Shown in pieces: positions 24,481 through 57,551 of a DNA stretch of 57,551 nucleotides. Under the pieces are notes generated by a model, which saw only the letters and a list, made by a program, of their open reading frames with translations, was not told the DNA's origin and searched no databases. A program made the translations under genes and the position numbers. Source of the DNA: Basidiobolus meristosporus CBS 931.73 (taxonomy: Eukaryota > Basidiobolomycota > Basidiobolomycetes > Basidiobolales > Basidiobolaceae); the NCBI GenBank assembly GCA_002104905.1, contig MCFE01000563.1, positions 1 through 57,551 on the forward strand, given 5' to 3'. Position 1 is the first letter of the stretch. Each line of letters opens with the position of its first letter.

Positions 24481-24827
24481 TGTAAAAATTCGTATTTTCC
24501 ACCTAAATATTCACCTAACTTAGTCACTTAGATCATCACCTTCCAATCCTAGAGAATACTGACCAAATTCCTTGTTGGGATTTACTTAGAATATTTTCAC
24601 CAAAATACCAGGTACCCAGAACATGAAAATTCTCAAAGTTGTCCAAACAGCCCCAAACTTTGCACACATGTTCTTGGGACCTTCCTTAACCTATTCTACG
24701 TGTTTGTAATGCCAAGACCATGTAAAAGTATAAATACTACTTTTACATTCAATAAATCATTAAGTGAAAACCACATAATCTACTTGTTCTCCAAATCACT
24801 TCCAATATCTCCAAGACTCTTACAACA
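24481..24827 (+). repeat. 5' LTR of copia I
   Basis: ~347 bp. TATA box TATAAATA at 24729-24736 lies inside a perfect 9-bp inverted repeat (GTAAAAGTA...TACTTTTAC, 24722-24746). AATAAA follows at 24751. It ends TTACAACA. Confidence 0.92.
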
Positions 24828-24839
24828 GGTTATGAGCCC
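24828..24839 (+). other. Copia I primer binding site (initiator tRNA-Met internal fragment)
   Basis: GGTTATGAGCCC is the complement of GGGCTCATAACC, the anticodon arm of eukaryotic initiator tRNA-Met. Priming by the 5' half of this tRNA is known for Drosophila copia. The gag ATG (24832) lies inside this site. The same 12-mer follows the LTR in copia IV and, on the minus strand, in copia II. Confidence 0.8.
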
Positions 24840-26745
24840 CGAGCTGTCACTCTCTGCAATGTCTACTACTGCTATTACTGGAATTTTTCCCTCTGCTGAA
24901 AAGTTGGATGGATCTAACTACCAAGTGTGGAAGGTGAAGATGAAGATGCTGCTACAAGAAAGAGGCCTTTGGGATATTGTCATGGGAGAAGAATGCCCTC
25001 CTAAAAACGTGGGAGAGGAAGCCTTAAAGTACCAGAAGAAAGAACAAAGTGCCTTTAACTGCATTTGCCTTAATGTCAAGGACAAATTGCTAATTCAATG
25101 CTCAAGAGCAAAAACGGCAAAGAATGCCTGGAAAGCATTAGAAGAAACCTACCAGTCATGTTCAGCTGCCAAGAAAATGTATCTGAGAAGAAAATTCTTT
25201 ACTACAAAGATGCTGCCAGGAGAAGAAATGAAAAATCTAATTAACAGAATTACCCTGCTGGTAGATGAGATGGAATCTGTGGGCGTACCAACTACTGATG
25301 AGGATGTGATAGTTACCATCCTGAATAGCCTGACAGACGAGTTTCAGGGCCTTGTATCAGCCCTAGAGTCCAGAACTGAAGATTTGACCTTAAATTACGT
25401 ATATGGAAGGCTCCTGGATGAAGAATTAAGAAAATCAAGCGTCAATAAGAAGGAAGAAGAAAATGCTTTAATAAGCAATGATAACCAACAAAGGAGGTAC
25501 CCAAGACCCTACAAAGGCAACAGCAACCTATTTTGCAACTACTGCAAAAGGAAAGGACACACATCAGACCGGTGTTTCAAAAAGAGAGATTATCAGCAAA
25601 AGAAGCCTGAATATGGAAATGCTGCAACAACTGAAGATAGACTATTCATATCTGCACTAAATATGACCACAAACAAGGATTCTCAGACGTGGTATATTGA
25701 CTCTGGAGCTTCTCAACACTTTACACACCAAAAAGAACTTTTTACCCAATATCAAGAAATTCCAATTAAGAAGGTTTTCATGGGTGACGATAGAACACTT
25801 GATGCAGTGGGAGAAGGAACTATTCAAGTAAACCTTAGAAGCAGTGAAGGAAGCCATACACTGACCTTTAAAGAAGTACTCTATGTACCAGAAATAGCCA
25901 AGAACCTACTCTCTGTAAGCAAGGCCACAGCAGAAGGACTCAGTTTCAGTTTTGACAATTCTGGATGCAGGATCACTGATCAAAATGGTGCTCATATTGC
26001 TTCGGGCATCAGAGATCAGAATCTATACAAGCTGACTTATATTCCATCATATTTGGAAGCCAATATAAGTAACTTAAATGAAGAAACACCAATGCTTTGG
26101 CACAGGAGATTTGGACACATCAATTTTGATTATTTGCGCAAAATGATCAAAGATCAGCTAATTTCTGGAGTGAAAATTGATCCCCCAGCTAATTTGGAGC
26201 ACTGTGAAGCCTGCATATATGGGAAACAAGCCAGACAACCGTTCAAGAGCTCTGGGTTAATCAAAACTAAGAAAAAATTAGATCTAATTCACTCAGATCT
26301 GTGTGGACCTATGCAAAATTTATCCTTAGGCGGGATGAAGTATTTAATCACTTTTATTGATGATTATACAAGATACACATGGGTCTACTTCATGGAGAGA
26401 AAGGAAGAAGCTCTGTCTAAGCTCAGGGAGTTTAAAGCCATGGTGGAGAGAGAAACTGGTGAAAAAATCAAGAAAATACGCTCTGACAATGGTGGAGAAT
26501 ATACCTCAAAACTCTTCATCCACATCTGCAAAATTCATGGGATAAAGCAAGAGACTACTGTACCATACTCCCCACAGCAAAATGGAGTAGCAGAACGAGC
26601 TAACAGATCAATAATTGATATGGCAAGATCTATGATCCATGATCAAAAATTATCCTATGATTTTTGGGCGGAATCAGTTGCCACTGCTGTATACCTTAAA
26701 AATAGGAGTTATAACAGAATACTTCGTGATTCTACTCCATTCTAG
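24832..26745 (+). pseudogene. Copia I gag-protease-integrase
   Basis: The start ATG at 24832 was chosen because upstream extensions run into the LTR from a GTG. From the N-terminus: copia gag (DGSNYQVWKVKMKMLLQERG, residue ~25); CCHC zinc knuckle CNYCKRKGHTSDRC near residue 233; protease WYIDSGASQH near 287; integrase HHCC from ~420 (HRRFGH...CEACIYGK); and core residues in FIDDYTRYTW (~507), IRSDNGGEYTS (~550) and NGVAERANR (~587). All catalytic residues look intact. The frame ends at a TAG created by a two-base insertion near 26740, where copia II reads through. Confidence 0.92.
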
Positions 26746-28803
26746 AAGCATGGTATGGATACAGACCAAGTGCAGAACATCTAAGAATATTTGGGTGCAC
26801 AGCATATGCCAAAAAACGGCCGGAAATCAGTCAAAATTTGAGCCAAAAAGTGTAAAATGCATATTTTTGGGCTACTGCAATGAGAGTAAGGCATACAGAC
26901 TCTACAATACCGAAGCAAAGAAGCTTATCAAGTCCAGGGATGTGTTGTTTGATGAAAATTCAAAATTTTCACAAAAAATGACATCAGATGATGACAAAAA
27001 TTTGATCTCAAGTCCACCAATTGTCAGGATTGAATCAGAGCAAAACAATGAAAATTTTTTCACTCCAGAGGACTCTACAACCGTGGTTCAGCCAGAATCA
27101 GTGCCCAGGAATATCCCAGAAGTGATCATTCCAGTATCAAATGCCCGGAGATCCAATCGGACAAGAAATAGCCCAAATTACTATATCAATGAGGGTACAA
27201 ACTTAGCCTATGCCTATTCAGTCCATATTGATGAACCCCAGACTGTAAAAGAGGCCCTAAATAGCCCTCAGACAAAGTTTTGGAGATCTGCAATGACTGA
27301 GGAATATCAGGCACTGATGGAAAATCAAACTTGGGACTTAGTCAAATTACCAATCAACCGAAAATCAATTGGATGCAGATGGGTCTTCAAGACAAAATAC
27401 AAGGCTGATGGTACAATTGAAAGATACAAAGCAAGACTTGTAGCCAAAGGATACTCTCAAACAAAAGGACTTGACTATACTGAGACCTTTGCACCGGTAG
27501 CCAAGTTTAATTCCATCAGATTAATATTGGCTATTGCAGCCAAATATAAGTTTTTTATTCATCAAATGGATGTAAAAACTGCATTTTTGAATGGAGAACT
27601 TGATGAGGACGTGTATATGGACCAGCCTGATGGGTTTGTTGACCAAGATAACCCCCATTTGGTCTGCAAGCTTAAAAAGTCACTATATGGTCTCAAACAA
27701 TCACCGAGAGCCTGGAATTGCAAGATAGATTCTTATTTGGAATCTTTGAGTTTCAAAAGGAGTAATGCTGACTATAGTATATACTATAAGCCAGATAGAG
27801 CAAATCCAGTTCTATTAGCTCTATATGTGGATGATCTTATTATAGCCGCCAATAACCTAGAAACATTGGAAGAGACTAAATCCAGCCTATCTAAGGAGTT
27901 CAAGATGTCCGATCTAGGAGAACTTAGTTACTACTTAGGGATTAAGTTCTCCATAGACAGAAGTACCCAGACTATTACCCTAAGCCAATCCAAGTATATT
28001 CAAGATATACTAAAGAAGTACAAAATGGAAGACTGTAAACCGGCAGCTACCCCAATGGAGACAAACCTTAACTTGGTCAAAACTCAACCAAATCAAGAGA
28101 GCTTGGTGCCATCTGAAAGCCCTGACTTTCCTTATCAATCTATGGTCGGCAGTCTGATGTATATCATGCTTGGAACACGTCCAGATATCTCATATTCAGT
28201 GGGAGTTGTCAGCCAACATAATCAGAATTATGGATCTGATCATATTGCAGCAGTTAAGCGGATTTTTAGATACCTAAAAGGAACTGCTGATATCTGCTTA
28301 AGATACACTTATAAGGATTCAGAACAGGATCTTGTGGGATACTCTGATGCTGATTGGGGACGAAATTTAGAAGACAGAAGATCCACCACAGGATACACCT
28401 TTCTTTACTGTAAAGGAGCATTTCATGGAATTCAAGAAAGCAACCAACCGTAGCACTTTCTACTACAGAGGCAGAGTATATGGCAGCCTGTGAAGCTACA
28501 AAAGAAGCAATGTGGTTAAGAAAGCTCTTTACAGATTTAGGCCTATGTCAAAAAACGCCTATTACTTTATTTCAAGATAATCAAGGATGTATACAATTAG
28601 GTAGAAATCCAACTTTTCATGCTAGAACCAAGCACATAGATATTAGACATCATTTCATACGTGAAGCTATAGAGAATAACTTAGTTAGCTTAGTTTACTG
28701 TCCTACAGATGAAATGATTGCAGACATATTTACCAAACCATTAGCTAGAGACAAGTTTGAATATCTTAGGTCAAAATTAGGACTAGTCAGTATGAACATT
28801 TAG
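26746..28803 (+). pseudogene. Copia I reverse transcriptase-RNase H
   Basis: The shifted frame to 28453 covers the linker and the copia reverse transcriptase: [36 protein letters not shown] and LYVDDLIIA (intact DD). RNase H starts with VGYSDADWG. A one-base loss in an A-run near 28425 breaks the frame, which resumes at 28480 with the RNase H end (KHIDIRHHFIREAIE, ADIFTKPLARD) and stops at 28803, just before the polypurine tract. Confidence 0.92.
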
Positions 28804-29461: not shown

Positions 29462-30546
29462 CTAAATGTTCATACTGACTAGTCCTAATTTTGACCTAAG
29501 ATATTCAAACTTGTCTCTAGCTAATGGTTTGGTAAATATGTCTGCAATCATTTCATCTGTAGGACAGTAAACTAAGCTAACTAAGTTATTCTCTATAGCT
29601 TCACGTATGAAATGATGTCTAATATCTATGTGCTTGGTTCTAGCATGAAAAGTTGGATTTCTACCTAATTGTATACATCCTTGATTATCTTGAAATAAAG
29701 TAATAGGCGTTTTTTGACATAGGCCTAAATCTGTAAAAGCTTTCTTAACCACATTGCTTCTTTTGTAGCTTCACAGGCTGCCATATACTCTGCCTCTGTG
29801 GTAGAAAGTGCTACGGTTGGTTGCTTTCTTGAATTCCATGAAATTGCTCCTTTACAGTAAAGAAAGGTGTATCCTGTGGTGGATCTTCTGTCTTCTAAAT
29901 TTTGTCCCCAATCAGCATCAGAGTATCCCACAAGATCCTGTTCTGAATCCTTATAAGTGTATCTTAAGCAGATATCAGCAGTTCCTTTTAGGTATCTAAA
30001 AATCCGCTTAACTGCTGCAATATGATCAGATCCATAGTTCTGATTATGTTGGCTGACAACTCCCACTGAATATGAGATATCTGGACGTGTTCCAAGCATG
30101 ATATACATCAGACTGCCGACCATAGATTGATAAGGAAAGTCAGGGCTTTCAGATGGCACCAAGCTCTCTTGATTTGGTTGAGTTTTGACCAAGTTAAGGT
30201 TTGTCTCCATTGGGGTAGCTGCCGGTTTACAGTCTTCCATTTTGTACTTCTTTAGTATATCTTGAATATACTTGGATTGGCTTAGGGTAATAGTCTGGGT
30301 ACTTCTGTCTATGGAGAACTTAATCCCTAAGTAGTAACTAAGTTCTCCTAGATCGGACATCTTGAACTCCTTAGATAGGCTGGATTTAGTCTCTTCCAAT
30401 GTTTCTAGGTTATTGGCGGCTATAATAAGATCATCCACATATAGAGCTAATAGAACTGGATTTGCTCTATCTGGCTTATAGTATATACTATAGTCAGCAT
30501 TACTCTTTTGAAACTCAAAGATTCCAAATAAGAATCTATCTTGCAA
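29462..30546 (-). pseudogene. Copia II RT end and RNase H
   Basis: Frames 30546-29725 and 29752-29462 give the reverse transcriptase end (LYVDDLIIA near 30.43 kb), RNase H (VGYSDADWGQ) and the terminal ADIFTKPLARD. They are separated by a single-base loss near 29735 and entered through a single-base loss near 30510. Confidence 0.9.
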
Positions 30547-33430
30547 TTCCAGGCTCTTGGTGATTGTTTGAGACCATATAGTGACTTTTTAAGCTTGCAG
30601 ACCAAATGGGGGTTATCTTGGTCAACAAACCCATCAGGCTGGTCCATATACACGTCCTCATCAAGTTCTCCATTCAAAAATGCAGTTTTTACATCCATTT
30701 GATGAATAAAAAACTTATATTTGGCTGCAATAGCCAATATTAATCTGATGGAATTAAACTTGGCTACCGGTGCAAAGGTCTCAGTATAGTCAAGTCCTTT
30801 TGTTTGAGAGTATCCTTTGGCTACAAGTCTTGCTTTGTATCTTTCAATTGTACCATCAGCCTTGTATTTTGTCTTGAAGACCCATCTGCATCCAATTGAT
30901 TTTTGGTTGATTGGTAATTTGACTAAGTCCCAAGTTTGATTTTCCATCAGGGCCTGATATTCCTCAGTCATTGCAGATCTCCAAAACTTTGTCTGAGGGC
31001 TATTTAGGGCCTCTTTTACAGTCTGGGGTTCATCAATATGGACTGAATAGGCATAGGCTAAGTTTGTACCCTCATTGATATAGTAATTTGGGCTATTTCT
31101 TGTCCGATTGGATCTCCGGGCATTTGATACTGGAATGATCACTTCTGGGATATTCCTGGGCACTGATTCTGGCTGAACCACGGTTGTAGAGTCCTCTGGA
31201 GTGAAAAAATTTTCATTGTTTTGCTCTGATTCAATCCTGACAATTGGTGGACTTGAGATCAAATTTTTGTCATCATCTGATGTCATTTTTTGTGAAAATT
31301 TTGAATTTTCATCAAACAACACATCCCTGGACTTGATCAGCTTCTTTGCTTTGGTATTGTAGAGTCTGTATGCCTTACTCTCATTGCAGTAGCCCAAAAA
31401 TATGCATTTTACACTTTTTGGCTCAAATTTTGACTGATTTCCGGCCAGTTTTTTGGCATATGCTGTACACCCAAATATTCTTAGATGTTCTGCACTTGGT
31501 CTGTATCCATACCATGCTTCAAATGGAGTAGAATCACAAAGTATTCTGTTATAACTCCTATTTTTAAGATATACAGCAGTGGCAACTGATTCCGCCCAAA
31601 AATCATAGGATAATTTTTGATCATGGATCATAGATCTTGCCATATCAATTATTGATCTGTTAGCTCGTTCTGCTACTCCATTTTGCTGTGGGGAGTATGG
31701 TACAGTAGTCTCTTGCTTTATCCCATGAATTTTGCAGAAGTGGATGAAGAGTTTTGAGGTATATTCTCCACCATTGTCAGAGCGTATTTTCTTGATTTTT
31801 TCACCAGTTTCTCTCTCCACCATGGCTTTAAACTCCCTGAGCTTAGACAGAGCTTCTTCCTTTCTCTCCATGAAGTAGACCCATGTGTATCTTGTATAAT
31901 CATCAATAAAAGTGATTAAATACTTCATCCCGCCTAAGGATAAATTTTGCATAGGTCCACACAGATCTGAGTGAATTAGATCTAATTTTTTCTTAGTTTT
32001 GATTAACCCAGAGCTCTTGAACGGTTGTCTGGCTTGTTTCCCATATATGCAGGCTTCACAGTGCTCCAAATTAGCTGGGGGATCAATTTTCACTCCAGAA
32101 ATTAGCTGATCTTTGATCATTTTACGCAAATAATCAAAATTGATGTGTCCAAATCTCCTGTGCCAAAGCATTGGTGTTTCTTCATTTAAGTTACTTATAT
32201 TGGCTTCCAGATATGATGGAATATAAGTCAACTTGTATAGATTCTGATCTCTGATGCCCAAAGCAATATGGGCACCATTTTGATCAGTGATCCTGCATCC
32301 AGAATTGTCAAAACTGAAACTGAGTCCTTCTGCTGTGGCCTTGCTTACAGAGAGTAGGTTCTTGGCTATTTCTGGTACATAGAGTACTTCTTTAAAGGTC
32401 AGTGTATGGCTTCCTTCACTGCTTCTAAGGTTTACTTGGATAGTTCCTTCTCCCACTGCATCAAGTGTTCTATTGTCACCCATGAAAACCTTCTTAATTG
32501 GAATTTCTTGATATTGGGTAAAAAGTTCTTTTTGGTGTGTAAAGTGTTGAGAAGCTCCAGAGTCAATATACCACGTCTGAGAATCCTTGTTTGTGGTCAT
32601 ATTTAGTGCAGATATGAATAGTCTATCTTCAGTTGTTGCAGCATTTCCATATTCAGGCTTCTTTTGCTGATAATCTCTCTTTTTGAAACACCGGTCTGAT
32701 GTGTGTCCTTTCCTTTTGCAGTAGTTGCAAAATAGGTTGCTGTTGCCTTTGTAGGGTCTTGGGTACCTCCTTTGTTGGTTATCATTGCTTATTAAAGCAT
32801 TTTCTTCTTCCTTCTTATTGGCGCTTGATTTTCTTAATTCTTCATCCAGGAGCCTTCCATATACGTAATTTAAGGTCAAATCTTCAGTTCTGGACTCTAG
32901 GGCTGATACAAGGCCCTGAAACTTGTCTGTCAGGCTATTCAGGATGGTAACTATCACATCCTCATCAGTAGTTGGTACGCCCACAGATTCCATCTCATCT
33001 ACCAGCAGGGTAATTCTGTTAATTAGATTTTTCATTTCTTCTCCTGGCAGCATCTTTGTAGTAAAGAATTTTCTTCTCAGATACATTTTCTTGGCAGCTG
33101 AACATGACTGGTAGGTGTCTTCTAATGCTTCCAGGCATTCTTTGCCGTTTTTGCTCTTGAGCATTGAATTAGCAATTTGTCCTTGACATTAAGGCAAATG
33201 CAGTTAAAGGCACTTTGTTCTTTCTTCTGGTACTTTAAGGCTTCCTCTCCCACGTTTTTAGGAGGGCATTCTTCTCCCATGACAATATCCCAAAGGCCTC
33301 TTTCTTGTAGCAGCATCTTCATCTTCACCTTCCACACTTGGTAGTTAGATCCATCCAACTTTTCAGCAGAGGGAAAAATTCCAGTAATAGCAGTAGTAGA
33401 CATTGCAGAGAGTGACAGCTTGGGGCTCAT
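30447..33430 (-). pseudogene. Copia II gag-protease-integrase-RT
   Basis: ATG at 33430 lies inside the primer site, as in copia I. Gag reads from 33430 to about 33130. After one lost base the frame continues unbroken from 33164 to 30447, through the zinc knuckle, WYIDSGASQH, the integrase core and FIHQMDVKTAFLNGEL. Here the integrase-to-RT join that is broken in copia I is open, so copia II preserves the family's original frame at that point. Confidence 0.92.
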
Positions 33431-33434
33431 AACC

Positions 33435-33784
33435 TGTTGTAAGAGTCTTGGAGATATTGGAAGTGATTGGGAGAACAAGTAGATTATGTGGTTTTCACTT
33501 AATGATTTATTGAATGTAAAAGTAGTATTTATACTTTTACATGGTCTTGGCATTACAAACACGTAGAATAGGTTAAGGAAGGTCCCAAGAACATGTGTGC
33601 AAAGTTTGGGGCTGTTTGGACAACTTTGAGAATTTTCATGTTCTGGGTACCTGGTATTTTGGTGAAAATATTCTAAGTAAATCCCAACAAGGAATTTGGT
33701 CAGTATTCTCTAGGATTGGAAGGTGATGATCTAAGTGACTAAGTTAGGTGAATATTTAGGTGGAAAATACGAATTTTTACAACA
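33435..33784 (-). repeat. 5' LTR of copia II
   Basis: 350 bp, complete, TGTTG to CAACA in both readings. The TATA-containing inverted repeat (GTAAAAGTA/TACTTTTAC) is intact. Confidence 0.92.
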
Positions 33785-46308: not shown

Positions 46309-48672
46309 TTATGCAGAGTGAAGAAAATGGTAGGCCTTGTTGATGTTCGTATTCCAGATCTCAGAAACCCTATCAGCGGCAACCGCCCATTCGTGCAACT
46401 CGGGGCTCAAGTCGTTGATCTGTCTGGGCTGGAGCTCGGTGGGGTCAGAGTAGAGATCGTAGTATGCCATTGAGCCATCGTTGAACTTCAGCAGCTTGTG
46501 GGTGCCGTAGCGCAGCGTCGTAGAGAAACCTCCGGGGGTAGCTAGCGACATGGTGATTCGCATGGGGTCGCTGGGCCCAGTGATGCTGGATCCTTCGTAA
46601 TCGAAGGCGCCTTGCTCTGCCTCGGGATCCTCCTTGAGAAGGTTTAGCATCGTCGGCAGGATGTCGAGATTGGTCCAATTGCCAAGGACCAGGTTGGTAG
46701 CGCCGCGTTGATACAGCGTTTGCAAGCGGCCATCTTGCTGTGCTTCGGGGCCATCCTTCTCGATCAGGTTCAGTCGGAACTGTTGCTTTAGATACTCCTG
46801 CACGCCACCGTTCGGCGAGTAGAACATAAGCGGTACATTGAATGCATATTCATACGGGTTTTGATGGGCATGCATGATGTGATGCTCGCGCAGAGAGACT
46901 CCGTGGTCCCCGACAAACATAAAGAGAGTCTCCTGGTAGGTCTTTGGATGGGCCTTCTCGAAGGAGGCCAGGAAGTCCTTCATGAAACCGTCAACATAGC
47001 GAATGCTGTTCAGATAGTCATTCACTGGGCCGTCGGCCTTCTCGAGATAGTCGATCTTGTTCCAGCTCTTCGGCTGGCCGTATGGATGATGCGCAGCGTT
47101 GTTGAGGTGAGTGAGGAAAAAGGGCTTGTTGGCGTCTTTTTGCTCGCCGATCCAGTCCACCATCTTGGGAATGATGATTTCGTCCTCGTATCCAAAGTAA
47201 TTGATTTCCTCGAACTTGCCGTTGGACAGCCTGGGGATATTGTCGTATTGGTCGAGCTCTCCACCGTTGATCAACTGCTTGTCGAGCACGAGGTCGAATC
47301 CGAATTTCTGCATTAGATTCCTTTGGTTGTCGAAGCCGCCGTCGGATGTTTGGAAATAGGCTGAGCCGTAGTCGGAGTGCTTCTTAAGAAGCTCTGGCAA
47401 GCATGTTTGGTAGAAGGGGTGGGTGCGTTCGGAGGCGCCCGGGGTACGAAGTGGCATCATGCCGCAATGGGTGGTTGTGAGTGATTTCAAAGTGTATCCC
47501 GAAAGAGACTTGGTGTATGGCATGTAGAAGCCTCCTCGTCGCATCAAATCCTCGAAAAACGGCGAGATACCGCTCTCGTATCCTTCAGCGCTGCTGGGGT
47601 TGCGAGTTTGGTTACGCTGCTCCTCTCTGAGCTTTGGTTCCAGCCGCTCGGAGAACTCGGAGAAATAGTCGAATGGGACTATATCATTGCGAGTGGTCTC
47701 GAGGATCATGAATACAACGTTCTTGATGGTCGAATTCTGGCTTCTTCGGAGAAAGTCAAAGTCTTGGTCTTGCATTGTCGAGTTTCGTCCGACCCGCATG
47801 CTCGAGAATTTGGTTACAAATTCATTGGTCGCATCGTACTTGAAACCCGTGATATTCAGAGAACCAGCATTCGCAACATGAGGATAAATCAGCATAATAC
47901 AGAGTGCTTTGGCGCCAAAGTTGCTATCGAGCTCTGACCAAGGGGCCGAGGGTCTGATGGTCAAACACAAAACGATGTAAGTTAGGAGGAGGGCAGTCAG
48001 TAGTCCGTATGCGGCGTTTCTCTTGGTCGCGACCAACAAAAGGGTTTCTCTTGACCAAGAGAGCTTGACCACATTTGGAGAATGCTTTGGCTCTGAATAC
48101 AGAGTCTCCTCAAAGAATGCCTCCTCGATCGCAGCGATCTCGTCAAGCTTGTTGTGTACAGGCATGTAGGGCTGACTTGCAGACGTCCTTGACATCTGAT
48201 AGCGCAAGGAGAAGTAGAAGAACAGCCAAAGCGCAAGAAGTCCCAAAGACATGATGACAAGTAAAGGCAGGTCGTGCACAGCCATTCCAGCTTGGGCAGC
48301 AGTAACATTGGCCAGCATGTCGCGCATAGTATACCAGTTGATCAGAGTCTCCGATTCGCGGTAGAACGTGATGGTCATGACGTTCGCCAGGTTGCTCCAA
48401 AGTGCGAGCAGGTACAGCACACCCGAGAAAACCCCACCCAACCACCGCAGCTTCCGAAAGCTCCCGCACAGCTCCATTAAGAACACAATCACCTGCAGGT
48501 ATGCCCAGTCGAAGAAAAGGCTGGAGGGGAACCAGAGAGCATCGCTGGGCTCTCGGCTCAGGTAATCCAAGGCTAACAGTAATTTGCATATGATGCACGA
48601 GATGAAGGTGGCAGAGATGAAGGCCTTTGCGAGAATTGAGATCCGGCCATAAAAGAGAAACAGAATACTCAT
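46309..48672 (-). CDS. Membrane-anchored LtaS-like sulfatase-superfamily enzyme
   Basis: 787 residues, one exon, ATG at 48672. About five hydrophobic segments (roughly 2-33, 52-72, 80-102, 132-157, 219-238) precede a large alkaline-phosphatase/sulfatase-fold domain (~315-775). Likely metal and active-site residues: Glu325 in MILETTRND; Ser397 in SGYTLKSLTT as nucleophile by analogy with the Thr of bacterial LtaS; Asp589-His590 in FVGDHG; and His597/His598 in REHH. There is no CxPxR sulfatase motif, so it should act without formylglycine, perhaps as a phosphotransferase or phosphodiesterase at a membrane. The substrate is unknown. The architecture matches lipoteichoic-acid-synthase-like proteins known from bacteria and some eukaryotes. 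Codon use is GC-rich like the arrestin gene. Confidence 0.9.
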   Translation of the reverse strand: MSILFLFYGRISILAKAFISATFISCIICKLLLALDYLSREPSDALWFPSSLFFDWAYLQVIVFLMELCGSFRKLRWLGGVFSGVLYLLALWSNLANVMTITFYRESETLINWYTMRDMLANVTAAQAGMAVHDLPLLVIMSLGLLALWLFFYFSLRYQMSRTSASQPYMPVHNKLDEIAAIEEAFFEETLYSEPKHSPNVVKLSWSRETLLLVATKRNAAYGLLTALLLTYIVLCLTIRPSAPWSELDSNFGAKALCIMLIYPHVANAGSLNITGFKYDATNEFVTKFSSMRVGRNSTMQDQDFDFLRRSQNSTIKNVVFMILETTRNDIVPFDYFSEFSERLEPKLREEQRNQTRNPSSAEGYESGISPFFEDLMRRGGFYMPYTKSLSGYTLKSLTTTHCGMMPLRTPGASERTHPFYQTCLPELLKKHSDYGSAYFQTSDGGFDNQRNLMQKFGFDLVLDKQLINGGELDQYDNIPRLSNGKFEEINYFGYEDEIIIPKMVDWIGEQKDANKPFFLTHLNNAAHHPYGQPKSWNKIDYLEKADGPVNDYLNSIRYVDGFMKDFLASFEKAHPKTYQETLFMFVGDHGVSLREHHIMHAHQNPYEYAFNVPLMFYSPNGGVQEYLKQQFRLNLIEKDGPEAQQDGRLQTLYQRGATNLVLGNWTNLDILPTMLNLLKEDPEAEQGAFDYEGSSITGPSDPMRITMSLATPGGFSTTLRYGTHKLLKFNDGSMAYYDLYSDPTELQPRQINDLSPELHEWAVAADRVSEIWNTNINKAYHFLHSA

Positions 48673-48700
48673 TGTAGTGGCTATTGGAAATGGGGGATCT

Positions 48701-48712
48701 CCAATTATATAG
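48701..48712 (-). promoter_or_regulatory. TATA-like box of the sulfatase-like gene
   Basis: CTATATAATTGG on the minus strand, 29-40 bp before the ATG. If used, the 5' leader would be very short. Confidence 0.4.
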
Positions 48713-51059
48713 TGAGGGCAGGAAAATGTTTCTGGCGAAGCTTATTGTTGTTACCTTACATAACCTTAAATATGCCTATATCTGAATATAGCATCTCACC
48801 AAACATACGGCCAAACCGTGATTTGGAATCTGTCCCACACATGCTCTCAGGTGCCAAGCAGCCAATAGTCAAATATGGATTGTGGCTAGTTGCAATGTTT
48901 CTATGCGGGCGGCAAGGAACACACACTTGATCCAGGTGCTATGGTGCTGTAGAACCGCTGCTTTCATGCTCCAGCAAGGATACACAGAGTCCTCGCTGGA
49001 TGGGTGTTGCTGTGACACATATTAATGAGATGCTGTTGGACGCGGTTTCCGAAGCCCACTGAATTCCCGTTCCTGGCCACTTGCGGGTGGTTACAAAAAC
49101 CGTGTACTCAATCACATGGTGGACCAATCTACTCCACATGGTACAAGAAATATCTGCCGTATGAAAGCTGTATTGATGCTATTGCTGAATCTTGATTTCC
49201 CATTTGGACGAAGGAATGTCTGTACACACACATCCCCGAAATGGACATTCCTAATTATCCCAATTCAATCCGGTCCAAGTGATCGCTAAAAATAGCCTGA
49301 TTGTGATTCCCGGATAGTTATTCTGACTTTCATCTATCCATCCGCACCGGTGCCTGATGGTTGCCCTCGCTGAACAGAAAATTCCGATAGTATTATGCGC
49401 CAAATTAATCAGTGGACAGGCGCCGATTCCTCAATTGGTCCTGACTCTTGTGATCGAAGTTGGTTCTGTACGAATTTAGAAGGAATTCGAAGGACAGCAA
49501 CCAAATAGCCATAGCAATCAAGACAATCTAGATGCTCCCAATTTGACTTAATACCCCTCCTTCTTGGTGGGGAGAAACCTTAGATGGCGCAAAAGTAGAC
49601 AATACTCCTCGTTTACACACGAATCCTGGATTCATTGTAGCCCACTGCTCAGCCAGGCTACCTTGCCGCCCGCTCGCCCTATGTGGCAACCACTGTCTGC
49701 CGCCTTCCTTCAAGGATGAAGGTGCTCTGACCCCTGTAGGCCACTACTCGTGGTCGAAGTGTGGCATAAGCAAGTAATTAAAGCCCACAAATTACCGCCG
49801 ATTTCCGGTGGTCATCATTGGTCAACTTGTCGCTTATTGCCTCAGCAGAAATCCAGATCTCAACCGAGAGCAATGCATATTGCTAATAACATGCCCAATT
49901 TGCGGAGCCAAATGATGGGGTCATAATTATGTTTACCGAAATTATAGAGATTGCGTGTCCAGAATAAGGAGCCAGCATTTCAATGTATCCCACATTGCAC
50001 CAGCGCTGTATTGGCTGTCGGATAGCTGCACTTGGGTGTTCTTTTGCTCCGGTAACAATAGGTTAACGGCTGAAATGCGCCTTTTAATGACGATCTTATC
50101 CTTGGGTAACATTACCATCCCTCAGTCCAAACCGATCCTCAAAGATTGGGCTGCTGTAGTGCGGGAATGATTATTTCCCACAAACTAAGCTTCAAAAGTA
50201 CACACGCATATATATTCATTTCCGAGTTGCGTGGTTGCACGAGACTCAATATGCCAGCGTTGTCAAGTCACATCGTAAACTTGCTCAGCCAGTTGGTACC
50301 TCGCACCTGAGTGCCGCCTGTGTAACATGTCATTTAAAACTCACGGATATGTTGATGATACTGCAGCAAATAACTCTTGTCATGGATGCCCTCTATTTCA
50401 GTATTCAACATGCATAGCATTACAAACACACATCGGCGTAATATCTATTATATCTATGGTCACTATATTGATTCTTCTAAAGAAAGCTGGTATCGTTTGT
50501 AGTTATAGGATGTATTGATATATCATCTTCGTCTGACTGTAGGATACTGAGTTCATGTTGCGTTTTGGGAGCAACTCCCTCTCGAGCCTCTAGGGCACTC
50601 AAAAAGCAGTAACTTGCAGATGGAGTCAAAGTCGCCCAAAAGCCTCCATAGTAAGAGTTGCTGATTTGATATTCATTCATCAGTTTTCTGACATTCCTAC
50701 CATTAACATATGACTATATGGTGGTGATGTGCACCACTTGCTGCCAGAAACAGTAAAGCTTTCATAATTATTAAGAATGCCAGCTGGCAGGACTTATATA
50801 TGTATTACAATGATAGGACTGCTGCCCTTTTTCATATAAGTTTTTAGTACTGAAGGTACCTTTGTTAGCTTACCCAATCAAGATCCCTTTTGATCAACAG
50901 TAGGCTAATATAGAAGTAATCAGTTGATATTAAACAACACTGGGAAGTGCTGTTTTGTATTCACACTGAGATATCTTCAGTTAGTCACTTGGACCCTCGT
51001 CTACGCTCAATTTCATTTTCTCGTCATGTTTTCGTCAGGACTTGCCGGTAATACTTACG
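48713..51059. other. No recognised gene
   Basis: Mixed composition. Only short frames without domains occur on either strand. No transposon similarity was seen. Confidence 0.4.
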
Positions 51060-52828: not shown

Positions 52829-53012
52829 TGAGGGGGGGAGACAGTCACAAACAGGTGAGAACTTTATTTGAGTTGACACAAAGAAGCCAGCGGTACTCTT
52901 GTAACTTAGATACAAGAGTGTGTAGCTGAGGGGAATTGGCAGGTAAGTTAATAAGTGTCAACAATAGCTCTTCAGTGCTGCAGATACTGTTCTGTGGGAA
53001 GGGGAGAGGGTA
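52829..53012 (-). mobile_element. Telomere-attached unit T1
   Basis: The plus strand begins with A and seven G, then a near-hairpin TCACA-AACA-GGTGA (52845-52858), TTTATT (AATAAA in sense) and aaagaagcca. The sense strand is minus, so this is a retroelement 3' end facing the centromere. The body matches T5 (tacaagagtgtgtagctgag). It is not coding. Its outer end runs into telomere-like repeats. Confidence 0.75.
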
Positions 53013-53026
53013 AGGTTAGGGTTGGG
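53013..53026 (+). repeat. Interstitial telomeric repeat
   Basis: AGGTTAGGGTTGGG, about two telomere units in the same orientation as the chromosome end, between T1 and a copia fragment. Evidence of a former chromosome end or a telomeric join. Confidence 0.65.
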
Positions 53027-53425
53027 CAATTCCAGGCTCCTGGTGATTGTCTGAGACCATGTAGAGATTTTTTACATTTGCAGACCAAATGGGGGTTATC
53101 TTGGTCAACAAACCCATCAGGCTGGTCCATATACATGTCCTCATCAAGTTCTCCATGCAAAAATGCAATTTTTACATCCATTTGATGAATAAAAAACTTA
53201 CATTTGGCTGCAATAGCCAATATCATTCTGATGGAACTAAACTTGGCTACCAGTGCAAATGTCTCAGTATATTCAAGTGCTTTTGTTTGAGAGTATCCTT
53301 TGGCCACAAGTTTTACTTTGTATTGTGCAATTGTACCATCAGCCTTGTATTTTGTCTTAAAGACCTATCTGCATCCAACTGATATTTGGTTGATTGGTAA
53401 TTTGACCAAGTCCCAAGTTTGATTT
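53027..53425 (-). pseudogene. Copia VI fragment (reverse transcriptase)
   Basis: The minus-strand frame covers the copia reverse transcriptase N-half, with AKGYSQTKALEYTETFALVA and FIHQMDVKIAFLHGELDED. Cut on both sides: telomere-like repeats on the left, the T2 tail on the right. Sister copies continue gattttcc where this one reads gatttaggggg. Confidence 0.88.
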
Positions 53426-53927
53426 AGGGGGAGGGAAAGTCACCAAGTAGGTGAAATTCTTATTTGAGTCAAGAACTAATATAAGTACAAATAAACTAGT
53501 CAACTAAAAAGTCTAGAACCTCTCTAATAAGTAATCTAATTTATATTTTGTTTCATCTCTAATGTTTGTTTCAATAAGGTAAAGCTCATCAGGGGTAAAT
53601 ATAAAACTCAAGGGTTTGGGAGGAAGTACAAATTGTAGATGTTTCCAATCAATATAATCTAAGAGGGGAACCCAGCCTGGGCTTAGGTGTAGTAACAAAG
53701 GTGTGTGGACTTGTAAGTAGCTCTGCCACATAGATCTTAGTTGGTCCTGTGCTAGTAGTCTTGGTTTCTCAGCTTTTCAAAGTTTTGAAGCAAGTTCTGT
53801 TACTACAACAGAGCCAACCAGGGTGTACTAGCAGGAAGATTTCAGAGAGGAGTTAGATTTAAGCCATTGTTTGATGGAGGGGCTATGTGATTTCTGAAGC
53901 TTAAACAGGAAGGAAGGACAGCAATAA
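53424..53927 (-). mobile_element. Telomere-attached unit T2
   Basis: It starts TTTAGGGGGAGGG on the plus strand, followed by hairpin TCACC-AAGTA-GGTGA (53440-53454) and CTTATT. A minus-strand reading frame ends 88 bp inside. The unit is interrupted on its right by the copia III LTR. Confidence 0.75.
53513..53790 (-). pseudogene. C-terminal part of an unrecognised T2 protein
   Basis: The minus-strand frame is open from just after a TGA (~53790) to the stop at 53513. It ends FTPDELYLIETNIRDETKYK and LDYLLERF. The IExxIRDxxKxK end resembles the end of the T3/T4 protein (FDIEDIRDTAKSKFIL), and both stops lie 85-100 bp from the junction. No family is recognised. The upstream stop suggests decay. 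Confidence 0.5.
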
Positions 53928-55590
53928 TGTTGTAAGAGTCTTGGAGATATTAGAAGTGATTTGGTGTACAAGTAGATTATGTGGTTTTCACTTAATGATT
54001 TATGGAATGGAAAGTAGTATTAATACTTTTACATGGTCTTGGCATGACAAGCACGTAGAATAGGTTAAGAAAGGTCCCATGAACATGTGTGCAAAGTTTG
54101 GGGCTGTTTGGACAACTTTGAGAATTTTCATGTTCTGGGTACCTGGTATTTTGGTGAAAATATTCTAAGTAAATCCCAACAAGGAATTTGGTCAGTATTC
54201 TCTAGGATTTGAAGGTGATGATCTAAGTGACTAAGTTAGGTGAATATTTAGGTGGAATTACAAATTTTTACAACACTCCCACTCAGCTAAATGTTCATAC
54301 TGACTAGTCCTAATTTTGACCTAAGATATTCAAACTTGTCTCTAGCTAATGGTTTGGTAAATATGTCTGCAATCATTTCATCTGTAGGACAGTAAACTAA
54401 GCTAACTAAGTTATTCTCTATAGCTTCATGTATGAAATGATGTCTAATATCTATGTGCTTGGTTCTAGCATGAAAAGTTGGATTTCTACCTAATAGTATA
54501 CATCCTTGATTATCTTGAAATAAAGTAATAGGCGTTTTTTGACATTGGCCTAAATCTGTAAACAGCTTTCTTAACCACATTGCTTCTTTTGTAGCTTCAC
54601 AGGCTGCCATATACTCTGACTCTGTAGTAGAAAGTGCTACGGTTGGTTGCTTTCTTGAATTCCATGAAATTGCTCCTTTACAGTAAAGAAAGGTGTATCC
54701 TGTGGTGGATCTTCTGTCTTCCAAATTTTGTCCCCAATCAGCATCAGAGTATCCCACAAGATCCTGTTCTGAATCCTTATAAGTGTATCTTAAGCAGATA
54801 TCAGCAGTTCCTTTTAGGTATCTAAAAATCCGCTTAACTGCTGCAATATGATCAGATCCATAATTCTGATTATGTTGTCTGACAGCTCCCACTGAATATG
54901 AGATATCTGGACATGTTCCAAGCATGATGTACATCAGACTGCCAACCATAGATTGATAAGGAAAGTCAGGGCTTTCAGATGGCACCAAGCTCTCTTGATT
55001 TGGTTGAGTTTTGACCAAGTTAAGGTTTGTCTCCATTGGGGTAGCTGCCAGTTTACAGTCTTCCATTTTGTACTTCTTTAGTATATCTTGAATATACTTG
55101 GATTGGCTTAGGGTAATAGTCTGGGTACTTCTGTCTATGGAGAACTTAATCCCTAAGTAGTAACTAAGTTCTCCTAGATTGGACATCTTGAACTCCTTAG
55201 ATAGGCTGGATTTAGTCTCTTCCAATGTTTCTAGGTTATTGGTGGCTATAATAAGATCATCCACATATAGAGCCAATAGAACTGGATTTGCTCTATCTGG
55301 CCTATAGTATATACTATAGTCAGCATTACTCCTTTTGAAACTCAAAGATTCCAAATAAGAATCTATCTTGCAATTCCAGGCTCTCGGTGATTGTTTGAGA
55401 CCATATAGTGACTTTTTAAGCTTGCAGACCAAATGGGGGTTATCTTGGTCAACAATCCCATCAGGCTGGTCCATTTACACGTCCTCATCAAGTTCTCCAT
55501 TCAAAAATGCAGTTTTTACATCCATTTGATGAATAAAAAACTTATATTTGGCTGCAATAGCCAATATTAATCTGATGGAATTAAACTTGG
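53928..55590 (-). mobile_element. Copia III, 5'-truncated at a unit junction
   Basis: A complete 3' LTR (53928-54275, 348 bp) and the RT/RNase H half of copia on the minus strand. It ends abruptly at 55590 (aaacttgg), where sister copies continue ctaccgg. Here the sequence goes straight into GTTAGGGGGG of T3. The copy therefore lost its 5' half at a chromosome end or break. Confidence 0.9.
54287..55590 (-). pseudogene. Copia III reverse transcriptase-RNase H
   Basis: A single frame is open from 55474 to 54287. It contains LYVDDLIIATNN, VGYSDADWGQ, KHIDIRHHFIHEAIE and ADIFTKPLARD, without the RNase H frameshifts seen in copia I and II. Upstream to 55590 the same frame reads through FFIHQMDVKTAFLNGEL, with one nonsense codon (Tyr to TAA, near 55475). 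Confidence 0.9.
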
Positions 55591-56400
55591 GTTAGGGGGG
55601 ATGATAATCACCACAGGGTGAAATCTTTATTTAAATTGTAAATAAAGAAGCCAAGTTAGAATATGAATATCTGAGATAAGGTAAACCTACAAGATAAACT
55701 TGGACTTTGCTGTATCCCTGATATCCTCAATATCAAAGTTTAGAGGAGAATGTAGCAAAACTGCTTGTTTGCTGTAGTATTTCTTGAGGAAGTTTGTGAC
55801 TTGAAGGGAAGGAGAGTTTTTCAACAAGCTGGTAAACCTTTTGAGGAGTTCTTTTTCCAGAGAGAATGGTACAAAGAGTGGAATGTCTAAATGATGTCTG
55901 AATATATGCTCTGAGAGCTCCCAATCCAGCATATTTTTGACTTCCTCTGTAAAATCTTCCACAATATCTTTGTCAAGAATGACTTCCAAGAGATCCCTGG
56001 CAATGTGCTGAATGTTAATAATCTTAGGCATATGAATACCTAGGTCCTTGAGGTAGTTTCTTTGTTCTGAAATTGGAAGATAGCCAGCATTTCTGCAATA
56101 GCAAACAGCCCAATTGGCAGTGGGAGGAGTATCAGGGCTGACAGGGAATCTTCTTCTGGTTTTAGGGTGCACTGGCTTAGGTGGCTGTCTTATTGGGAGG
56201 GCAGTGGACTTTGGATGAGCTTGAAGTGCTTGGGAGTATGTCTGAGTATGAATGTCAGGAGTTGCTGGTTGCTGATAGTGTTCAGATTGACTGGAAGAAG
56301 AGCTGGTTGAGGGGTTGCAAGGTAAGGAAGTAGCTGAAAGAGAAGTAGAGAGTGCTGGGTGAAGCTCAGAGAGAGTTTTGAAAAGAACCTGGATCTGGGT
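55591..56400 (-). mobile_element. Telomere-attached unit T3 (longest)
   Basis: The plus strand starts GTTAGGGGGG, then hairpin TCACC-ACAG-GGTGA (55608-55621), TTTATT (55626) and aaagaagcca. The sense strand is minus. 810 bp long, 5'-truncated on the right where the T4 tail begins. Most of it is one open reading frame. Confidence 0.8.
55687..56400 (-). CDS. Unrecognised protein of the telomere-attached element (5'-truncated)
   Basis: The minus-strand frame is open from the truncation point (56400) to the TAG or TAA stop at 55687, about 238 codons with no ATG needed. A start near 56172 would be GTG and is not credible. The N-terminal half is rich in Ser, Pro, Gln and Thr (low complexity). The C-terminal half has WAVCYCRNAGYLPISEQRNY and a charged, leucine-rich region (LDIPLFVPFSLEKELLKRF), ending FDIEDIRDTAKSKFIL. 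I see no reverse transcriptase, APE or restriction-like endonuclease motif. T4 carries the same C-terminus with few changes, mostly substitutions, which hints at coding constraint. It may be the tail of a larger retroelement protein or a separate ORF. Confidence 0.6.
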   Translation of the reverse strand, partial: TQIQVLFKTLSELHPALSTSLSATSLPCNPSTSSSSSQSEHYQQPATPDIHTQTYSQALQAHPKSTALPIRQPPKPVHPKTRRRFPVSPDTPPTANWAVCYCRNAGYLPISEQRNYLKDLGIHMPKIINIQHIARDLLEVILDKDIVEDFTEEVKNMLDWELSEHIFRHHLDIPLFVPFSLEKELLKRFTSLLKNSPSLQVTNFLKKYYSKQAVLLHSPLNFDIEDIRDTAKSKFIL

Positions 56401-56705
56401 TAGGGGGGGATGATAATCACCACAGGGTGAAATCTTTATTTAAATCATAAATAAAGAAGCCAAATTTGAATATGAATAGTTGAGATGCAGAAAGCCTACA
56501 AGATAAACTTGGACTTTGCTGTATCCCAAATATCCTCAATATTGAAGTCTAGAGGAGAATGTAGCAAAACTGCTTGTTCACTGTAGTATTTCTTGAGGAA
56601 GTTTGTGACTTGAAGGGAAGGAGAGTTTTTCAATAAGCTGGTAAACCTTTTGAGGAGTTCTTTTTCCAGAGAGAATGGTACAAAGAGTGGAATGTCCAAA
56701 TGATG
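56399..56705 (-). mobile_element. Telomere-attached unit T4
   Basis: The plus strand reads GGGTTA then seven G at the join, then hairpin TCACC-ACAG-GGTGA (56417-56430). It is ~95% similar by eye to the first 300 bp of T3 and carries the last 67 codons of the same frame (56699-56496). Truncated at aaatgatg, where T5 begins. Confidence 0.8.
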
Positions 56706-56829
56706 TTAGGGGGGGAGACAGTCACCAACAGGTGAAATCTTTATTTCAGTTGAAACAAAGAAGCCAGCGCTACTGTTGTAGCTTGATACAAGAGTGTGTA
56801 GCTGAGGGGAATTTGAAGGTAAGTTAATA
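56705..56829 (-). mobile_element. Telomere-attached unit T5
   Basis: TTA plus seven G, then hairpin TCACC-AACA-GGTGA (56722-56735), TTTATT and caaagaagccagcg. The 124-bp unit matches T1 to aagttaata, then stops where T6 starts. Confidence 0.78.
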
Positions 56830-56910
56830 GGGGAGGAAAGTCACCAAGTGGTGAAATCTTTATTTACTTATGACAAGTATCTAAAGAAGCCATGTTAATC
56901 TGAAGTTATT

Positions 56911-57029
56911 CCTAGAAAGCTAGGTCTGAGAGATATCTTCCTGGTAAGCCAGGTCTGAGGGTTGAGAAGCTGAGTGGTACTATATTTCCTAGTTAGCTAG
57001 GTCTGAGAGAGGTTTCCTGGAAAGCCAGG
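56911..57029. repeat. Four hairpin repeats with compensatory changes
   Basis: CCTAGAAAGCTAGG (56911-56924), CCTGGTAAGCCAGG (56940-56953), CCTAGTTAGCTAGG (56988-57001) and CCTGGAAAGCCAGG (57016-57029). Stems alternate CCTAG/CTAGG and CCTGG/CCAGG, so each A-T to G-C change is matched on the other arm. Three are followed by TCTGAG and the fourth by CCTGAG. Confidence 0.85.
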
Positions 57030-57287
57030 CCTGAGAAGTGAGAATCTGAATATATCTGAGCTAAGTTATACTGGTTTGCGGTAGCTGGATTGTGGCCGGA
57101 ATGGCCAGTAGACTGGGGGAACTGAGATGAATTTCTGGGCGATCACTGGCCAAATTTACTAGGCAAATCTGGCCAATTAGCATTTCAAGGATTTCAGCCA
57201 ATCAGAGCCTTTACTTTGCCCGATGGTTGATCAAGCCATCTCCCAATGAGCACACATCAATTTATTAATCAAATTTTGCTGGATCCA

Positions 57288-57341
57288 GGATTTGAACCCA
57301 CAACCATGGGTATGGAAGGGTTAGGGATAACCACAAGGCTA
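57288..57341 (-). promoter_or_regulatory. tRNA-like Pol III promoter (A and B boxes) of T6
   Basis: B box GGTTCAAATCC (57298-57288) matches GGTTCGANTCC with one change. A box TAGCCTTGTGG (57341-57331) matches the tRNA consensus with one change. Start-to-start spacing is 43 nt, as in a tRNA. The D-arm region (TAGCCTTGTGGTTA) looks tRNA-like. The anticodon stem does not pair, so it is not a functional tRNA. Confidence 0.7.
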
Positions 57342-57353
57342 AGTGTTCTTGGT

Positions 57354-57551
57354 TTAGGGTTAGGGTTAGGGTTAGGGTTAGGGTTAGGGTTAGGGTTAGG
57401 GTTAGGGTTAGGGTTAGGTTAGGGTTAGGGTTAGGGTTAGGGTTAGGGTTAGGGTTAGGGTTAGGGTTAGGGTTAGGGTTAGGGTTAGGGTTAGGGTTAG
57501 GGTTAGGGTTAGGGTTAGGGTTAGGGTTAGGGTTAGGGTTAGGGTTAGGGT
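57354..57551 (+). repeat. Telomere, (TTAGGG)n
   Basis: 198 bp of TTAGGG to the last base, with one 5-bp TTAGG unit near 57414-57418. The G-rich strand runs toward the window end, so this is the right chromosome terminus. Confidence 0.98.

Follow-up and report, generated by a model that had tools for sequence, protein, structure and literature searches.

Telomeric arrays of retroelements with one common 3′ tail in the fungus Basidiobolus meristosporus

Telomeric retroelements and the Basidiobolus locus

Few lineages are known to have retroelements that build telomeres, and the use of a borrowed reverse transcriptase (RT) by a Gag-only element, HeT-A, is to our knowledge a speciality of flies without telomerase. 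Here we describe a set of retroelements of the fungus Basidiobolus meristosporus CBS 931.73, noticed first in the window, i.e., the whole analyzed stretch of 57,551 nucleotides, contig MCFE01000563.1 of assembly GCA_002104905.1 (C828 among the 1,311 contigs of this 89.0-Mb genome). The window ends with 33 TTAGGG repeats, and six units of one orientation precede them, each bearing a tail that is common to five families: the long interspersed nuclear elements (LINEs) A and E, the elements C and D, which have open reading frame (ORF) 1 only, and S, which resembles short interspersed nuclear elements (SINEs). In our reading, to which we give a probability of roughly 0.8, this is a telomere-end-specific LINE system, in which a machinery primed by the 3′ end of the chromosome's G-strand serves all five families.

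The HeT-A, TART and TAHRE elements of Drosophila form head-to-tail arrays of one orientation at chromosome ends, where a Gag- or ORF1-only element stands beside elements with an APE-type endonuclease and RT, and in both respects the Basidiobolus arrays are alike (PMC5537684; statements on this and the other cited papers refer to the available parts of their texts). Drosophila, however, lost telomerase and its elements carry oligo(A) (PMC5537684), whereas the Basidiobolus arrays do not replace telomerase, since they have TTAGGG caps and the genome a TERT domain, and the tail common to their elements has two stem-loops and a C-tract in place of oligo(A). In contrast to HeT-A/TART, there are also two ORF1-only families plus a SINE-like element. 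Among fungi, MoTeR1 and MoTeR2 of Magnaporthe and FoTeR of Fusarium are similar in forming telomeric arrays of truncated units with 5′ ends directed toward the telomere, in their short interstitial TTAGGG tracts and insertions of long terminal repeat (LTR) elements, and in having two element types with shared ends (PMC7367193, PMC12857005). FoTeR and MoTeR1 possess a restriction-like endonuclease and group with CRE/SLACS (PMC7367193, PMC12857005), whereas the Basidiobolus LINEs have two ORFs with an N-terminal APE-type domain, are accompanied by ORF1-only and SINE-like partners, and belong to a set of 1,658 tails. Judged from the two predicted ORFs and the APE-type domain, the Basidiobolus system is not a member of the MoTeR/FoTeR group.

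The endonuclease of SART1 and TRAS is of the APE type, as here. These telomere-specific LINEs of the silkworm also have stem-loops in the 3′ untranslated region that are needed for reverse transcription, and their telomere-like RNA motifs were proposed to pair with the target (PMC7265360). They differ in their poly(A) tail and in insertion within the repeats, while the Basidiobolus elements have a C-tract, and 112 of their 116 junctions contain 4–14 nt of repeat; the described SART1/TRAS system includes, in the available text, no ORF1-only partner comparable to C and D (PMC7265360). The mode of action proposed here is related to that of HeT-A/TART, MoTeR, FoTeR and SART/TRAS. In stringent LINE/SINE pairs the SINE ends with the same 3′ stem-loop tail as the LINE with which it is paired, an arrangement that S resembles; in distinction to such pairs, the Basidiobolus set is telomere-bound and its ORF1-only elements have the same tail. 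Stem-loops of L1/Alu are the subject of PMC5135761.

One tail and five element families

Read in the RNA sense, the tail consists of UGGCU, stem-loop I (UCUUUaUUU...AAAuAAAGA), stem-loop II (UCACC...GGUGA), a pyrimidine linker and a C-tract. In the window, stem-loop I corresponds to the motifs TTTATT and aaagaagcca, one for each arm. The same two stem-loops were obtained by single-sequence folding of one representative per family (five sequences, z from −2.25 to −4.20), and in the aligned stems 97.2% of cells pair, vs. 38–50% in slid versions.

The tail hairpin pattern occurs 1,658 times in the 89-Mb genome (1,519 on the plus and 139 on the minus strand), with 0 and 0 matches in the reversed control. 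The family A tail has 653 exact copies genome-wide, and TTAGGG lies 0–8 nt upstream of 535 family A tail matches (among the 100 matches listed, five fall on a tail already matched once). The first-pass annotation expected copies concentrated at chromosome ends, with the G-run on the centromere side, as well as a full-length member encoding RT, and it proposed several bodies with one priming tail. All of this agrees with the data: the common tail extends to five families, LINEs A and E encode RT, the orientation holds wherever a telomere marks the end, and in 28 of 28 measured places the tail lies at most 15.9 kb from the contig end that it faces. These places were drawn from 41 found with the tail of the fourth window unit, omitting six on contigs <40 kb and seven on contigs whose length was not included (one of the latter, on C667, is 1.2 kb from the contig end); the 16-kb limit was fixed after the data were seen, so that the very small joint probability is a guide only. 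Altogether 127 tails were read on 41 contigs (70 of 95 loci), 118 of them plus and nine minus, and only one contig, C726, shows both orientations, which speaks against tails scattered in either direction. Six successive TTAGGG repeats gave 6,568 overlapping matches on the plus and 68 on the minus strand, i.e., an approximately 100-fold bias (0 and 11 in the reversed control); from this, it seems that before its release the assembly was arranged with the telomere on the right of most contigs.

LINEs A and E each comprise ORF1 and an endonuclease-RT ORF2, and their copies show truncated 5′ and intact 3′ ends. The ORF1 of LINE A, 523 amino acids from stop to stop (L072, L074), has a CxxC...CxC-type N-terminus, a coiled coil and a conserved C-terminal domain, and its ORF2, of approximately 922 amino acids, contains RVT_1 plus traces of an APE-type domain that lies N-terminal to the RT. 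The RVT_1 match has E=2e-24, and the best PDB match is human LINE-1 ORF2p (E=1e-12). The best 50 of 1,382 candidates for LINE A ORF2 are 98–100% identical and 47 of them are free of stops, thus at least part of family A is young. In LINE E the ORF1 is open for at least 527 codons, as far as the analyzed sequence of L085 extends, and ORF2, 51% identical to that of A over 484 residues, is complete; a fixed internal stop, suspected from one TAG, was ruled out, since in the five copies read this codon is where the frame ends naturally. In a LINE E relative, P0005, the domain PF14529 barely passes (27.5 against a cut-off of 27.4). At one position of the APE domain an Asp (LIDVQL/LIDVKL/LIDVKI) is found in the N-termini from L072:1-200 and L085:1-415 (minus strand) and in those of P0001 and P0003. 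We take this site to be the position of the metal-binding catalytic Glu of the LINE-1 endonuclease, and the Asp may be a sign that the endonuclease is altered or no longer required.

Element C, of approximately 1 kb, has a repeated 5′ leader and a single ORF of 266 amino acids directly before the tail; D contains an ORF related to that of C (44–55% identity in matches of at least 65 residues), which is open in L026, and none of the units of C and D that were read showed an ORF2. The C leader (L016, L017, L021, L006, L027) contains a tandem repeat of approximately 115 bp with variable copy number, which includes CCCTAACCCT and an AG-ended splice-like motif. The protein of C is 28–30% identical to the C-terminal domain of LINE A ORF1, a domain matched by the D protein as well, and this homology could mean that both elements arose from a LINE by deletion and are dead passengers. 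Against such an origin, neither protein has the N-terminus with the Cys motif that marks LINE ORF1, and of the 14 C copies extending to the start codon 12 have an uninterrupted frame of 265–266 codons, a sample biased toward young copies because most were best matches to a C tail. Moreover, purifying selection acts on the C protein: the ratio of nonsynonymous to synonymous substitution rates (dN/dS) is 0.21 over 66 pairs among the 12 open copies, and 0.107 in the C-terminal part. Only three matches to this protein were found in a set of 5.8 billion proteins, all from Basidiobolus ranarum (the best with 60% identity over 99%), in line with the assignment of the genome to Basidiobolus, and in the tree a B. 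ranarum protein falls inside the C clade with 98/99 support. It is improbable, in our opinion, that C and D are mere debris; the purifying selection on C and its B. ranarum relative make C resemble HeT-A. A fold search with the C protein (Foldseek) gave a best E of 0.012 and nothing below 0.001, LINE-1 ORF1p being absent from the best 50 matches listed.

Of element S, 12 of 26 units are full length, and 11 of these 12 measure 513–554 bp. Among eight distinct heads a B-box-like motif is present in seven and an A-like box (one mismatch) in four; ARAGORN found no tRNA gene in the head, and Rfam gave sub-threshold matches only.

Junctions and growth of chromosome ends

Where neighboring units meet, the cut body of one is as a rule followed by a short telomere repeat and the G-run of the next. 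At 116 plus-strand junctions (counting three Gs of the G-run into the stretch, and setting aside two junctions without a readable linker) the telomere-like stretch is 4–14 nt long in 112 cases, 16–18 nt in three and 39 nt in one, and never shorter than 4 nt; at least TTAGGG is contained in 103. For comparison, the TTAGGG arrays at 12 distinct contig ends are 102–243 nt long. One may ask if the LINE endonuclease simply nicks intact telomere repeats, in the manner of SART/TRAS or MoTeR and without terminal priming, the short TTAGGG being what remained after cutting or loss. ORF2 retains an APE-type domain, and insertion into repeats was described for MoTeR and SART1 (PMC7367193, PMC7265360), which makes this the main rival explanation. 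However, random cuts in a telomere of 100–240 nt should leave long and varied tracts, not the short ones that prevail, and the tract length differs between family A and families C or S. Tracts of at most 7 nt (a cut picked after the data were seen) occur at 25 of 38 junctions of A, 6 of 32 of C, 9 of 31 of S, 3 of 7 of D and 6 of 8 of E, with p=1e-4 for A vs. C and 0.004 for A vs. S; when 12 junctions at SINE 5′ ends are left out, the values are 3e-4 and 0.006. Such dependence on the family is expected if the RNA 3′ end (CUAA(CC)) templates a part of the tract, and is not expected of a cut or worn telomere remnant. Nicking within the repeats is therefore considered unlikely.

The arrays could also have spread mainly by recombination between ends (break-induced replication) after few true retrotransposition events, as is seen in some MoTeR arrays (PMC7367193), and at one locus (L061) two consecutive 120-bp units share one cut. 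Yet comparison of the 45 bp upstream of the 127 tails gave 126 distinct contexts, and there are 112 distinct 15-bp cut points; where a cut point recurs, it is the SINE's natural 5′ end (11 times), a site in the C leader (four times) or one of two sites found twice each. Hence recombination as the main route appears very improbable, and an origin of the array by one tandem duplication, which the first-pass annotation named as a possible explanation, is ruled out by the 126 distinct contexts.

In at least one case erosion preceded the addition of a tail: at locus L063 a plus-orientation copia element breaks off within its coding sequence at the very point where a tail starts, and its 3′ side is missing, which is impossible by 5′ truncation, so the end was lost first and the tail added afterwards. 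The shortest units, of 37–44 bp, and a 19-bp remnant in L036 fit repeated loss or aborted synthesis. Four or more TTAGGG repeats are reached directly by 12 of 85 closed units. Two matches to the TERT RNA-binding domain lie approximately 50 bp apart on C880 (E=1.6e-8 and 9.7e-7), indicating that the genome encodes telomerase. Together these observations suggest serial addition of elements onto worn ends, alongside ordinary telomerase.

The telomere-end-specific system that we propose would operate as follows. LINEs A and E would produce ORF1p and the endonuclease-reverse transcriptase ORF2p, and the latter would recognize the common RNA 3′ end, i.e., stem-loops I and II, the short pyrimidine linker, the C-tract and CUAA. 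On ends that have lost most of their telomere, the G-strand 3′ end, with one or two TTAGGG, presumably pairs with the C-tract/CUAA and primes reverse transcription directly onto the chromosome end; with the chromosome end as the primer, the 3′ end of each unit would come to point to the centromere. Telomerase would then cap the 5′ end of the new unit, later erosion would trim it, and the next unit would be added. C, D and S, having the same tail, probably borrow ORF2p, whereas C and D may contribute an ORF1-type protein of their own, so that proteins would be shared in trans among the families; ORF1p may have a role in finding telomeres.

Several points weigh against the terminal priming of a telomere-bound system. 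The evidence comes from sequence analysis. In the tail stems there is only one pair of which both partners are changed, a count attained in 455 of 500 shuffles; the covariation test is weak since the stem sequences are nearly invariant, and covariation was dropped as proof of the stems for this lack of variation. No difference in tract length was found between families A and E. The APE-type endonuclease of LINE A stays below Pfam cut-offs, as does that of P0001, and one of the two TERT matches has an internal stop, as expected from an intron. As to position, 139 of 1,658 tails lie on the other strand. No telomere repeat was found at the left ends of C27, C80, C613, C595, C291, C142, C217 and C284, which bear minus-strand tails, nor at that of C1257, which has a reversed LINE; some contigs with minus-strand tails begin inside an element, and the minus-strand tails of C291 and C217 may be relics. 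That C291 is a chromosome with arrays at both ends is unproved, no telomere repeat being present at either end. On C726 (L082, C726:59000-62500) two arrays face each other with their 3′ ends, approximately 275 bp apart and contrary to the usual arrangement, for which a fusion product, an inversion and a misassembly are candidates.

The array of the window and its meaning

The units of the window were identified by comparison with element bodies found elsewhere, with one reference copy per unit, and all features of the array up to the terminal repeats lie on the minus strand. Unit 1 (52832..53004), with a G-run at 52832-52838 and a hairpin from 52845, is an old 3′ end of LINE A, to which the stretch 52845-53004 is 85.6% identical. 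It is separated from unit 2 by a fragment of a copia LTR retrotransposon (53026..53425; 92% identity over 400 bp to copia elsewhere in the window). Unit 2 (53424..53919; TTAGGGGG from 53424, hairpin from 53440) is a LINE E 3′ end with 90% identity across 480 bp to the copy in L063, and it is adjoined by a further copia element, cut on the telomere side (53923..55590; 97.8% over 1669 bp), whose ORF at 54287-55474 matches RVT_2 with E=8e-40. Unit 3 (55592..56397; TTAGGGGGG from 55592, hairpin from 55608) is an element C without its 5′ part, 94% identical over 790 bp, which encodes the C-terminal part of the C ORF1 protein (55687..56394, 235 codons); its tail is 96% identical to that of unit 4. 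Unit 4 (56400..56705; hairpin from 56417) is another C element, cut after approximately 290 bp (99% over 290 bp), and unit 5 (56706..56829; hairpin from 56722) a LINE A 3′ end cut after approximately 110 bp (98% over 109 bp). Unit 6 (56830..57353; hairpin from 56841) is a full-length S element, 96% identical over 513 bp, with the B-box-like GGTTCAAATCC close to its 5′ end, and is capped by the terminal TTAGGG array of 33 copies on the plus strand (57354..57551), where the contig ends.

The six units of the first-pass annotation are thus all present in the same orientation, with the G-run on the centromere side, and comparison of the bodies bore out that units 4, 5 and 6 each start at the cut point of the preceding one. 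Some details had to be corrected: unit 1 has a mutated hairpin (TCACA), the G-run of unit 6 is preceded by AATA instead of TTA, and TTTATT is present in five units, the second reading CTTATT; aaagaagcca is, as noted there, found in five of six. Some apparent element body is in fact the copia retrotransposon inside the array, which was ruled out as part of a tail-bearing element, since it is an LTR element that occurs in both orientations in arrays and is cut by tails. Identity increases toward the telomere in both repeated families, from 86 to 98% in the LINE A units and from 94 to 99% in the C units, as predicted by serial addition, in a small sample with a single reference copy each.

At another locus (L061:5830-6190) three successive LINE A tails lie 120 bp apart, two of the units having the same cut (ggtaa), and units 1 and 5 of the window are cut near that site. 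Two adjacent, similar copia elements of opposite orientations, whose family is also found in telomeric arrays, occupy 24553-28453 (+) and 29725-33709 (−) of the window, and an open frame of 810 amino acids at 46309-48741 (−) contains a sulfatase domain (PF00884, E=2e-26) and a hydrophobic N-terminal part.

As far as our searches reached, this combination of elements in a telomerase-keeping fungus is new. In the open-access literature, with subscription journals and Repbase outside the scope and papers available in part, we found no account of telomeric LINEs in Basidiobolus, no ORF1-only telomeric elements outside Drosophila and no telomere-bound SINE; PMC7466969 has no mention of terms in telomer- or retrotranspos-. 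We put forward, tentatively and with somewhat less than even confidence, that this is a second, independent HeT-A-like origin, in which C and D, as two old families, would supply a telomere-seeking RNA-binding protein, A and E the RT, and S would ride along, the whole serving Basidiobolus, with its very many small chromosomes, as a standing back-up of telomerase. The same division of labor as in flies would then be seen in a fungus that keeps telomerase, one in which an ORF1-only protein is conserved and a SINE-like element is carried along. Did the loss of telomerase come first, or the domestication of the elements? What does a lone ORF1 protein do at the telomere? Both questions become testable here, in one genome that offers more than 1,000 chromosome-end additions, each with a readable cut and junction.

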